DNA from: Ruminococcus sp.
GTDB lineage: Bacteria; Bacillota; Clostridia; Oscillospirales; Ruminococcaceae
DNA: 64,000 nt
Direction: 5' to 3'
Assembly (NCBI GenBank): GCA_016290875.1
Contig: JAEEVL010000001.1
Coordinates: 186,001-250,000 of the forward strand
Part shown: positions 3,853-63,033 of the stretch, piece by piece
Position numbering within the stretch: position 1 is the first letter of the stretch
How the letters are laid out: every line of letters starts with the position of its first letter
Notes under the pieces: generated by a model
Seen by the model: only the letters and a program-made list of their open reading frames with translations
What the model was told of the DNA's origin: nothing
Databases searched by the model: none
Program-made: the position numbers and the translations under genes

Positions 3853-4353
3853 TTATGGTTCTATTTCTATTGCTCTACCCTCTTTTAGACTCGCCTGGCA
3901 GTCTATATATCGCTGATTTGAGCTTCCTCTGAACTTGATCTCCCAATCCTTTTGTGCAAGGATGAAAGGTCCGTCGATCAGATAATCGGTTACTTCAAGC
4001 AGTTTGCCCCAGCCGTTCTTGTCACGGTCGGCATAGAGCTTTTCAAATGTATATCCGGTGTAGGTTATAACATTCAGTCCTGCTGAGTGTATTTCTTTTC
4101 CGAGCTCTGCAAGAGTTTCTGCCTGGCAGAAGGGTTCTCCACCGCTGAATGTCACACCATCCAGTAGCGGATTCTCTTTTATCTTGGTAAGCAACTCTTC
4201 GGTATCGACCAGCTTTCCGCCGTCAAATGCGTGAGTCTGAGGATTATGGCAGCCCTCGCAGTTATGCGGGCAGCCTTGAGTAAATATCGTAAACCTTATT
4301 CCGGGACCGTCAACGATTGAGTCGTTGACAGTTCCGGCTATTCTTAGTTCCAT
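3853..4353 (-). CDS. nrdG: Anaerobic ribonucleotide reductase activating protein (radical SAM)
   Basis: TQGCPHNCEGCHNPQTHAF CxxxCxxC motif; downstream of nrdD. Confidence 0.95.
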   Translation of the reverse strand: MELRIAGTVNDSIVDGPGIRFTIFTQGCPHNCEGCHNPQTHAFDGGKLVDTEELLTKIKENPLLDGVTFSGGEPFCQAETLAELGKEIHSAGLNVITYTGYTFEKLYADRDKNGWGKLLEVTDYLIDGPFILAQKDWEIKFRGSSNQRYIDCQASLKEGRAIEIEP

Positions 4354-4362
4354 TGTATCACC

Positions 4363-6681
4363 TTAAACGCTGTGCTTTACTCTGTCATGCTCCTCTGAAC
4401 GCTTACCGTTGTTGAAACGGTCAAGAGTTCCTACAAGGTAACCTGTGATTCGACGAATTCTGTCGAATGCGATGTTATCACTATGCTCCTTACGTCCGCA
4501 GCAAGGACAGGTATCACCGATTATTCCGGTGTATCCGCAGCAAGGATCACGGTCTACGGGGTGGTTTATAGCACCGTAGCCAATACCGGATTCCTTCATG
4601 CAGCGTACTATCTTCTCAAATGCATTGAGGTTTTCAAGCGGATCACCGTCAAGCTCGATGTAGCTGATGTGACCTGCGTTTGTAAGCTCGTGGTAAGGAG
4701 CTTCTATCTTGATCTTCTCAAATGCGCTTATCGGATAGTAAACCGGTACGTGGAATGAGTTTGTATAGTAATCACGGTCTGTTACACCTTCGATAACGCC
4801 GTACTTTTTAGCGTCCATACGGACAAAACGTCCGGAAAGTCCTTCGGCAGGAGTTGCGAGGAGTGAGAAGTTGAGACCTGTTCTGGTTGATTCTTCATCA
4901 AGTCTCTTTCTCATTGCTGTGATTATCTCGATACCGAGTTCGCGAGCCTCTTCGCTTTCGCCGTGGTGAGCACCTATGAGTGCCTTGAGTGCTTCTGCAA
5001 GTCCGATGAAGCCTACTGAAAGTGTACCGTGCTTGAGAACTTCGCCTACTGTATCATCAGTTGAGAGCTTGTCAGAGTCAATCCAGATACCCTGTCCCAT
5101 AAGGAATGGGTAGTTTCTCACTCTCTTCTGTGCTTGTATGCGAAATCTGTGCATAAGCTGATCGATAACGAGATCCATCATATCTTCGAGCTTTTCAAAG
5201 AAGAGACCAACATTGTGATCTGACTTTATAGCGAGTCTTGGGAGATTGATAGAAGTGAAGCTGAGGTTTCCTCTGCCGGTCACTATCTCGCGTGAAGGAT
5301 CGTGCTTGTTGCCGATAACACGGGTACGACATCCCATATATGCGATCTCGGTGTCAGGATTGCCCTCTTTGTAGTACTGAAGATTATAAGGAGCATCGAT
5401 GAAAGAGAAGTTCGGGAAGAGTCTCTTTGCGGATACTCTGCAAGCTAGCTTGAAGAGGTCGTAGTTAGGATCGGTAGGATTATAGTTGATACCGTCCTTG
5501 ATCTTGAAGATGTGTATCGGGAAGATAGGAGTCTCGCCGTTTCCGAGTCCTGCTTCCTGAGCGAGGAGAACGTTCTTGATTACCATTCTGCCCTCGGGTG
5601 AAGTATCGGTACCGTAGTTTATGGAGCTGAAAGGTGTCTGAGCACCTGCACGGCTGTTCATTGTATTGAGGTTATGGATAAGAGCTTCCATAGCCTGATA
5701 TGTAGCTCTGTCAGCTTCCTTGACAGCATTCTTGGTTGCGAAAGCCTGAACCTTCTGAGCAGTTTCCTTGTCTGTGTACTCAAGGAGAAGTTCGAGCTCC
5801 TTTGCCTGATAGTCATTATCGTTTGCGAGGACGGGCTTGAGATCATACTTTTCAAGTATCTCTCCGCTTATCTTCTTGACTATTTCATCTTCATTCTCTG
5901 CTCCTGCGATGAGTGAGAGTGCTCTTGCAACATTCTGTGTATAACGGGCAGCATATGTCTTCTTGACACCTTCTGCCATAGCATAATCAAATGTAGGTAT
6001 GCTCTGTCCGCCGTGCTGGTCGTTCTGGTTGGACTGGATAGCGATACATGCGAGAGCCGAATAACTTGCGATGTCATTGGGTTCACGAAGATAGCCGTGG
6101 CCTGTTGAGAAACCATTGTGGAAGAGCTTTGTAAGATCTATCTGACAGCAAGTAGTTGTCAGTGTATAGAAATCAAGGTCGTGGATGTGGATGTCACCGT
6201 TGCGGTGAGCCTTTGCGTGGGCAGGCTCGAGAACGTACATCTCGTAATATTCCTTAGCTGATACAGAACCGTATTTCAGCATTGTTCCCATAGCGGTATC
6301 GCCATCGATATTGGCATTCTCACGCTTGATATCGCTGTCTTTTGCGGGACTGAATGTGAGCTCGTTGAGTACGCACATAAGGTTGGTCTTCATTTCGCGT
6401 GAACGTGTACGCTCGTAGCGGTAGAGGATGTATGCCTTAGCTGTCTTTGCGTGGCCTTTTTCGATAAGAGTCTTTTCAACGAGATCCTGTATCTCTTCTA
6501 CGGTAGGGACTTTGCCCGGGTTCTGTTCCTCATATAATCTGCAAACTTCAACTGCAACGTCCATAGCGGCATTGAAATCTGTTCCGCCTTTAGCCTGTGC
6601 TGCTTTGAAGATAGCGTTTGCTATTTTTTCAATGTTGAATGGTACTTTTCTGCCGTCTCTTTTTATTATGTGTATTATCAT
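4363..6681 (-). CDS. nrdD: Anaerobic ribonucleoside-triphosphate reductase
   Basis: N-terminal ATP cone, NrdD core, C-terminal CxxC zinc motif and glycyl radical motif RRITGYLVGTLDRFNNGK. Confidence 0.97.
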   Translation of the reverse strand: MIIHIIKRDGRKVPFNIEKIANAIFKAAQAKGGTDFNAAMDVAVEVCRLYEEQNPGKVPTVEEIQDLVEKTLIEKGHAKTAKAYILYRYERTRSREMKTNLMCVLNELTFSPAKDSDIKRENANIDGDTAMGTMLKYGSVSAKEYYEMYVLEPAHAKAHRNGDIHIHDLDFYTLTTTCCQIDLTKLFHNGFSTGHGYLREPNDIASYSALACIAIQSNQNDQHGGQSIPTFDYAMAEGVKKTYAARYTQNVARALSLIAGAENEDEIVKKISGEILEKYDLKPVLANDNDYQAKELELLLEYTDKETAQKVQAFATKNAVKEADRATYQAMEALIHNLNTMNSRAGAQTPFSSINYGTDTSPEGRMVIKNVLLAQEAGLGNGETPIFPIHIFKIKDGINYNPTDPNYDLFKLACRVSAKRLFPNFSFIDAPYNLQYYKEGNPDTEIAYMGCRTRVIGNKHDPSREIVTGRGNLSFTSINLPRLAIKSDHNVGLFFEKLEDMMDLVIDQLMHRFRIQAQKRVRNYPFLMGQGIWIDSDKLSTDDTVGEVLKHGTLSVGFIGLAEALKALIGAHHGESEEARELGIEIITAMRKRLDEESTRTGLNFSLLATPAEGLSGRFVRMDAKKYGVIEGVTDRDYYTNSFHVPVYYPISAFEKIKIEAPYHELTNAGHISYIELDGDPLENLNAFEKIVRCMKESGIGYGAINHPVDRDPCCGYTGIIGDTCPCCGRKEHSDNIAFDRIRRITGYLVGTLDRFNNGKRSEEHDRVKHSV

Positions 6682-61358: not shown

Positions 61359-61910
61359 TCAGCCGAAGTATCTTTTGAGAAGTCCTTCAAATGCCTTGCC
61401 GTGGCGTGCTTCATCTCTTGCCATCTCATGTACGGTGTCGTGGATAGCGTCGAGGTTGAGTTCTTTAGCTCTCTTAGCAAGCTTGAGTTTGCCTTCTGTA
61501 GCACCGTGTTCAGCTGCAACTCTCTTTTCGAGGTTCTCTTTTGTTGAGTCAGAGAGAACTTCTCCGAGAAGCTCAGCGAATTTAGCAGCGTGCTCGGCCT
61601 CTTCAAAGGCAGCCTTTTCCCAGTATGCGCCAATCTCTGGATAACCCTCTCTGTATGCAACTCTTGCCATTGCAAGATACATACCGACTTCTGTACATTC
61701 GCCGGTGAAGTTGGAACGAAGTCCTTCGATGATCTCGGGATCTGAAACAGCCTTAGCTACACCGAGCTCATGTTCACAAGCAAAAACAAGTTTCTCTCCT
61801 GCTTCCTTTACGATGAACTTTGAACCGGGTACTCCGCACTGTGGACATTTCTCCGGTGGTTCTTCACCTTCATGGACGTAGCCGCATACGGGACATACAT
61901 ATTTTTTCAT
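61359..61910 (-). CDS. Reverse rubrerythrin (N-terminal rubredoxin domain)
   Basis: [32 protein letters not shown] then diiron four-helix bundle with ExxH motifs. Confidence 0.9.
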
Positions 61911-61960: not shown

Positions 61961-62224
61961 TCAGACGTTATGCTTTACTCTGTCGTGTTCTTCGGCGCGC
62001 TTGCCGTTATTGAATCTGTCGAGAGTACCCACAAGATAGCCGGTGATCCTTCTGATACGGTCAAATGGGATATTCTCAAAATCATACTGTAGATCAACAT
62101 ATTCGCCGTCGATCTTTACTGTCATTCCGATTATCTCACGGTCGCTGTATTTCTTCTTTCCGTACTCTATGTAAGCATTGATCTCGTCCTGAGATATCTG
62201 TTCACCGATAACATTTACTTTCAT
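61961..62224 (-). CDS. Stand-alone NrdD-type glycyl radical domain protein (87 aa)
   Basis: FDRIRRITGYLVGTLDRFNNGKRAEEHDRVKHNV nearly identical to NrdD C-terminus in this window; start ATG after GGAGG. Confidence 0.85.
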   Translation of the reverse strand: MKVNVIGEQISQDEINAYIEYGKKKYSDREIIGMTVKIDGEYVDLQYDFENIPFDRIRRITGYLVGTLDRFNNGKRAEEHDRVKHNV

Positions 62225-62288
62225 GTGTATTACCTCCTGTTTTATTTCGGGACTCTGTACAGTTCCTGCCGACAAATAAAAATAAATA

Positions 62289-62317
62289 TTGACTTTTGTC
62301 TGAAAATATTGTATCAT
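62289..62317 (+). promoter_or_regulatory. Promoter of Crp/Fnr-family gene
   Basis: TTGACT-N17-TATCAT. Confidence 0.65.
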
Positions 62318-62334
62318 AAATAATACGAAAAATC

Positions 62335-62350
62335 TGTTGCAATTGCAACA
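62335..62350. promoter_or_regulatory. Perfect 16-bp palindrome, putative Crp/Fnr-family operator
   Basis: TGTTGCAATTGCAACA between the promoter and RBS of the regulator; about 41 bp upstream of the predicted divergent start site. Confidence 0.65.
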
Positions 62351-62364
62351 AGGAGGAATTTTTT

Positions 62365-63033
62365 ATGTTACCGGAAGATAACATACTTTTCAAAGGTGTA
62401 GATCAGTCTGATTGCCGCCGTATGATAAGTTGTTTCAATCCTGATATAAGAAAATACAAGTCAGGCAGCCGTATAGCTGAGTTTTCACGTGAAAACGACC
62501 GCATTGGCATTATTCTCAGCGGAAGAGCTGTTATGGAGCGATATGACATAAACGGCGTACGCACGATCGTTGAAGCTCTTGGCGAACAGAGTGTTTTCGG
62601 TGCTTTCTTTACCTATTCACCTTCTATCAGAAGCGTTATTGAGATAGTCAGCGAAACAGACTGTGAAGTAATGTTCGTAAAGCGTTCAGAGATCACCAAA
62701 AGGTGCGAGAATGCTTGCCCATGTCATTCGAGAGTTGTAGAGAATCTGCTTGAGCTTATGTCTGAAAAAGCTATAAATTTGAGTGAGAGGATCGAAGTTC
62801 TCAGTCAGCGTTCGATAGAAGATAAGCTTATAAGTTGTCTCCAGATTATTGAAGATAAAACACCTCAGGGAAAAACTCCGCTTATACCGTTTTCTACGAC
62901 CGCGCTCTCTGATTATTTATGCGTGAACAGAAGTGCTCTCCAGCGCGAGATAACAAGACTGAAAAAGAATGGTATTCTTACAATTTCTAAGCGAAAATTC
63001 CGTTTATATCACAATAAAGAGCAAGATTTCTGA
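62365..63033 (+). CDS. Crp/Fnr-family transcriptional regulator
   Basis: Cyclic-nucleotide-binding-like fold plus C-terminal HTH (TTALSDYLCVNRSALQREITRLKKNGIL); GGAGG before ATG. Confidence 0.88.
   Translation: MLPEDNILFKGVDQSDCRRMISCFNPDIRKYKSGSRIAEFSRENDRIGIILSGRAVMERYDINGVRTIVEALGEQSVFGAFFTYSPSIRSVIEIVSETDCEVMFVKRSEITKRCENACPCHSRVVENLLELMSEKAINLSERIEVLSQRSIEDKLISCLQIIEDKTPQGKTPLIPFSTTALSDYLCVNRSALQREITRLKKNGILTISKRKFRLYHNKEQDF

Follow-up and report, generated by a model that had tools for sequence, protein, structure and literature searches.

The window analysed here, a 64,000-nucleotide stretch of DNA from Ruminococcus sp., a gut/rumen bacterium, contains a gene for an 87-aa protein that is very likely a separately encoded glycyl-radical domain for the class III ribonucleotide reductase (NrdD). 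It would act as a conditional spare in this genome and as an obligate subunit in phages and in lineages whose NrdD is truncated. More generally, the widespread stand-alone family is probably an exchangeable cartridge that works in trans with NrdD, either spare or obligate depending on the lineage, phage-borne, and under dedicated Crp/Fnr-type control in the window's genus. Relatives that have lost the end of NrdD always carry the separate piece and, therefore, the 87-aa protein is very probably a plug-in replacement part. The nearest named relatives of the window's species are Ruminococcus flavefaciens genomes. The gene, its parts and its presumed partners are as follows.

61961-62224, minus strand: 87-aa stand-alone glycyl-radical protein (N-domain plus NrdD-type tail), with ATG at 62224 and stop at 61961
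62066-62224, minus strand: N-domain, residues 1-53, predicted beta-alpha-beta-beta with pLDDT ~80 (alignment of relatives and AlphaFold)
61964-62065, minus strand: glycyl-radical tail, residues 54-87 (FDRIRRITGYLVG...) (Pfam, comparison with NrdD, PDB profile search)
62039-62041, minus strand: predicted radical glycine Gly62, codon GGC (invariant column in 97 aligned sequences)
62233-62238, minus strand: Shine-Dalgarno sequence AGGAGG, eight bases 5' of the ATG
4363-6681, minus strand: intact NrdD (ATP cone, core, zinc site and its own glycyl tail), the presumed partner (Pfam, NCBIfam)
3853-4353, minus strand: NrdG, the presumed activase (NCBIfam)

A sequence-only reading of this DNA had described an open reading frame with an NrdD-like tail, and this was confirmed by residues 54-87, which are identical to the tail of NrdD at 32 of 34 positions. 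Its hand count of 27 differences in the matching 102 nt proved exact on recount. These differences are mostly synonymous, as had also been claimed, since 20 of the 22 changed codons encode the same residue (pS 0.98 and pN 0.06 against the NrdD tail). The zinc cysteines and catalytic core were correctly reported as absent, with Pfam NRDD covering profile positions 533-562 of 562 only, and the glycyl radical motif is kept, as both the RxxGY motif and the conserved R-V-x-H end are present. Pfam NRDD matches the protein above the cut-off at residues 54-85 only (E 1.2e-7). NCBIfam detected the NrdD tail alone, and the matches from both libraries are restricted to the last 31-36 residues. PF01228 (Gly_radical) did not match in the Pfam search, even at E 1. 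Only NrdD tails rose above noise in a PDB profile search; residues 54-85 correspond in alignment to the radical loop and the C-terminal tail of NrdD.

The N-domain, comprising the first 53 residues, gave no family above threshold in any library searched. An AlphaFold model of the isolated protein, built with 97 relatives, had low confidence in the tail (pLDDT ~55), which is to be expected if the tail depends on a partner. A fold search of this model against the PDB found nothing significant, with a best E of 0.13. At that non-significant value, the predicted N-domain fold weakly resembles ribosome hibernation factors (HPF/YfiA).

The occurrence of the stand-alone protein is far beyond chance, with orthologues at the same position in 18 genomes of the window's genus and relatives elsewhere. 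These relatives come from numerous other genera and from phage contigs. The claim of protein-level selection made in the sequence-only reading also held, as pN/pS within the genus is 0.075 for the tail and 0.20 for the N-domain, indicating purifying selection on both. The radical glycine is invariant in the 97 aligned copies, and each of the 79 long-form bacterial copies that could be read retains it; 1 of the 80 bacterial loci (L168) carries an early stop. NrdD is present in 49 of the 50 genomes with the long form, the exception being a 1.4-Mb MAG.

The strongest indication of function came from a class survey of Oscillospirales, which revealed genomes with a stand-alone tail and an NrdD that lacks its own. 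In the short kind, NrdD ends about 25 residues past the zinc site (often with VSxEKLRELRRKYPNMP) and is followed by a 52-66 aa glycyl-tail ORF and often then by nrdG. NrdD of the long kind stops immediately before Thr-Gly, at FERIRRI or a decayed form of this motif, and an 87-aa protein of the window's type is encoded elsewhere or adjoining. Genus g20 contains four truncated species of the long kind, in which NrdD ends SERVARIKA, TERVERIKL or CERIPRIKV, whereas one intact congener (G386) retains FERIRRITGYLVGT. The sole match to the A1 profile in the four truncated genomes is the long-form stand-alone protein. Eight further bacterial genomes are of the long kind. Two of these show decaying NrdD tails: the glycine is replaced by Asp in G604 (RITDYLAG) and the tail is scrambled in G590.

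A stand-alone tail was present in 30 of 30 sampled Oscillospirales genomes with truncated or split NrdD, compared to 10 of 80 genomes without recognised truncation. The same 10 are among 25 genomes with an intact NrdD of the same type, defined as those of the 80 in which the A1 profile also detects the NrdD tail. Fisher's test, which ignores kinship, gave p values of 2.7e-7 (30/30 against 10/25) and 1e-18 (against 10/80). Truncation requires 11 state changes on a quick tree of 51 NrdD cores, on which long branches were noted, and the long kind requires at least five by well-supported branches. The intact NrdD of G356 is sister to the truncated ones of G576 and G574, and that of G386 groups with the truncated ones of G549 and G537. 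As read from this tree, truncation of NrdD arose several times. Also, five genomes have the stand-alone gene between an intact nrdD and nrdG.

Two other accounts of the truncated enzymes were considered and rejected. A dead gene is contradicted by the pN/pS of the truncated NrdDs (0.08-0.22), which is like that of intact ones, and by retention of the YMGC cysteine motif. A tail hidden in another frame was not found either: a six-frame search with the A1 profile detected nothing but short stand-alone ORFs in 30 of 30 truncated genomes. At those split cores whose downstream DNA was read, the tail has its own start.

Several further observations were made in these genomes. Among the NrdD cores split after the zinc site (L266, L268-L270, L272, L274-L279, L323, L324), many share the conserved short C-terminal extension VSxEKLRELRRKYPNMP, a possible dock for a separate glycyl subunit. 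One genome, G280, encodes three different short stand-alone glycyl tails (L334, L335, C10:40787-40900). A further NrdD-like protein (L284, L285, L337) has neither the zinc site nor the glycyl tail and terminates in GPKEIYQTAAGQAL or GPREIYQSAAGQAL; its gene immediately precedes nrdG in G326 and G216.

The family was also found in phages. IMG/VR contigs contained 80 loci, mostly short ORFs with an intact glycine motif. In an NrdD profile search of 38 phage contigs, 31 had the stand-alone protein and no other NrdD match, which is not proof of absence since the contigs are fragments. Six had an NrdD core without a tail together with a stand-alone tail, and one (G468) had a broken NrdD carrying its own tail. 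Five phage contigs encode, in order, a truncated NrdD, a long-form protein and an NrdG-like protein. At a few phage loci, the neighbours include phage-type genes for a clamp loader, an integrase and an exonuclease. Matches in annotated phage records were mostly short unannotated fragments; matches in plasmids were partial (tail-only), and none covered 80% of the query. On two large phage contigs, genes for a caspase-like domain protein and an RNase A-like CdiA-CT domain protein adjoin the stand-alone glycyl gene (L027:3591-4421, L012:3744-4769).

The sequence-only reading had proposed NrdD as the target of the 87-aa protein, for which it would serve as a glycyl-radical domain in trans. This proposal is supported by evidence that was not available to that reading, namely the natural truncations of NrdD at the point of oxygen scission, always with a stand-alone tail. 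The recurrence of truncation on the NrdD tree and the gene order nrdD, stand-alone gene, nrdG further support NrdD as the target. A partner NrdD without the glycine, as in a split class III reductase, occurs in g20 and in the five phage contigs; NrdD in the window is intact. Judging by these distributions, the stand-alone tail would be obligate where NrdD is truncated, and where NrdD is intact, as in the window, the protein is apparently a spare. A conditional spare is the simplest reading in the window's genus because NrdD is intact there.

The following features lie around the gene.

62308-62313, minus strand: -10 element TACAAT, read by eye
62335-62350, no strand assigned: palindrome TGTTGCAATTGCAACA, a putative Crp/Fnr-type site centred at -41.5 from the predicted start
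62365-63033, plus strand: divergent Crp/Fnr-family regulator with four conserved cysteines (Pfam, neighbourhood, alignment)
61359-61910, minus strand: rubrerythrin-type protein, downstream of the 87-aa gene on the same strand (Pfam, neighbourhood comparison)

A centre at -41.5 is the class II position of Crp/Fnr activators. Throughout the genus, the spacing between the TATGATACAAT -10 element and the palindrome is near constant, with the centre at -41.5; a consensus scan of the promoter did not single out the TACAAT element. Nearly all congeners have a palindrome of the TGTTGCAATTGCAACA form (L133 has no obvious one), and variants of it are found in distant genera that have the divergent Crp-like gene. 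An exact search of the 3.4-Mb genome for GTTGCANNTGCAAC gave a single occurrence. An alignment showed that the four cysteines of the regulator are conserved in 14 orthologues (MxxC, xxxC, RCxxAC). The regulator is a candidate redox or Fe-S sensor whose predicted site has one exact copy in the genome; that its four cysteines bind a cluster is a guess.

In the 18 readable congeners, the stand-alone gene is, with few exceptions, flanked by the divergent Crp/Fnr-family gene on one side and by rubrerythrin on the other, as far as the contigs extend. Rubrerythrin was not found adjoining the gene in one species (L130), and no crp is visible beside it on two short contigs (L116, L133). Some species have hairpins between the stand-alone gene and rubrerythrin, which makes co-transcription unsure. 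Outside the genus, the neighbours of most long-form genes vary, and the only shared one found was, in some genera, the divergent Crp-like gene, suggesting that the link to rubrerythrin is specific to the genus.

The genome that contains the window (G000) encodes one intact NrdD, the 87-aa protein and, at a distance of 107 kb, a third relative. The latter is a glycine-less paralogue of 87 aa with RSADYLVN replacing RITGYLVG and the same predicted N-domain (G000:C75:140533-140796 = L003:1501-1764). It adjoins rsmA, near an FAD-dependent oxidoreductase, in almost all genomes of the genus where the contig reaches, and a search of the family sample with its profile gave clear orthologues in the window's genus alone. 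The paralogue may be a partner without a radical, or a plug, for NrdD or NrdG. Since it has no glycine, the N-domain appears to have some other use too.

Glycyl radical enzymes that bear the radical are cut by oxygen at the glycine, as described for pyruvate formate-lyase (PFL) (PMC8683613) and stated for NrdD (PMC12288474). Homology, co-occurrence, conservation, recurrent truncation of NrdD, gene order and the promoter site are all read from sequence. We infer that the 87-aa protein forms a physical complex with cleaved NrdD, is activated by NrdG and responds to oxygen. The N-domain probably docks the protein, the last 34 residues would replace NrdD's own tail by bringing the glycine loop into the barrel, and NrdG would install the radical on Gly62. 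The spare would be made from the promoter with the dedicated Crp/Fnr-type site, next to rubrerythrin, and is most likely used when the NrdD tail is oxygen-cleaved or otherwise non-functional. Oxygen damage is the likely trigger because of the rubrerythrin neighbour and the cysteine-rich Crp/Fnr-type regulator, a setting that fits a stress role. The same kind of protein would have become the obligate radical subunit of a glycine-less NrdD in several sister lineages and phages.

Another explanation is that the protein is a trans glycyl-radical domain for NrdD with a purpose other than oxygen repair. It could be an alternative or regulatory domain used, for example, when NrdD's own tail is disordered (dATP) or for one half of the dimer. 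In several genomes the gene is part of an nrdDG operon whose nrdD is intact and adjoins it, and elsewhere it encodes an obligate subunit, so damage is no precondition for its use. The glycyl domain of Prevotella copri NrdD is ordered in just one of the monomers and becomes disordered with dATP (PMC11226230). However, the rubrerythrin neighbour and the cysteine-rich regulator in the window's genus speak against this explanation, and we consider it unlikely. It is highly improbable that the protein is an inhibitor or sink, lowering dNTP synthesis by competition with NrdD for NrdG or the barrel. The glycine-less paralogue conserved in the genus does imply that non-radical roles of the fold exist, but the glycine is invariant in the 97 aligned copies of the family, and an inhibitor would be useless in truncated-NrdD genomes, where the protein is the sole glycyl tail of its type. 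Service to a different glycyl radical enzyme, such as PFL, is more doubtful still. Oxygen cleavage is a problem common to all of these enzymes (PMC8683613), but the tail is of the NrdD type (RRITGYLVGT...RVKH), does not match Pfam Gly_radical, and co-occurs with truncation of NrdD. Lastly, a functionless, decayed fragment of a second nrdD is scarcely credible and was rejected: the tail is homologous to the NrdD end, but the gene has its own start, ribosome site and N-domain, has 18 orthologues in place, and is under purifying selection (tail pN/pS 0.075).

A spare glycyl-radical domain for NrdD would be a specific spare-part candidate for the enzyme from which strict anaerobes obtain their DNA precursors, and the naturally split NrdDs make the trans mechanism directly testable. 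If the proposal is true, the annotation of class III reductases would change, since glycine-less and seemingly dead enzymes are probably active. It would also suggest how anaerobes and their phages sustain DNA synthesis after oxygen exposure.

A search of the open-access literature found no NrdD spare part and no class III reductase whose glycyl domain is split off. Other divided reductases have been described. The class II reductase NrdJa/NrdJb (PMC4520616; discussed in PMC9669993) also consists of two polypeptides, but it is cobalamin-dependent and its split does not separate off a glycyl-radical domain. Phage nrdD genes can be interrupted as well (PMC3653736), but by introns, inteins or breakage, and no separate glycyl-radical protein with its own N-domain results. 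The tail of the 87-aa protein is like the glycyl-radical domain of NrdD, for which Prevotella copri NrdD is a solved example (PDB 8p23); here, however, it is encoded by a separate gene, has its own N-domain and lacks the zinc site.

The closest comparison is with GrcA (YfiD) of E. coli and Y06I of phage T4. According to Andorfer et al. 2021, these are the only validated spare parts, both for PFL, and others are possible for other glycyl radical enzymes (PMC8683613). The 87-aa protein appears to resemble GrcA/YfiD in function and is not GrcA by sequence. Like GrcA and Y06I, it is a small separate protein with an N-terminal, non-radical addition and a C-terminus that copies the glycyl domain of the big enzyme, radical glycine included, and it is found in both bacteria and phage. 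In contrast to them, its target would be NrdD and not PFL, PF01228 does not match it, and its N-domain is unrelated. The present family is also found mainly in anaerobic Clostridia and appears obligate in several lineages. The design is shared: oxygen-damaged PFL was mimicked in the laboratory by a stop codon at Gly734 (PMC8683613), and the natural NrdD truncations described here correspond to that construct.
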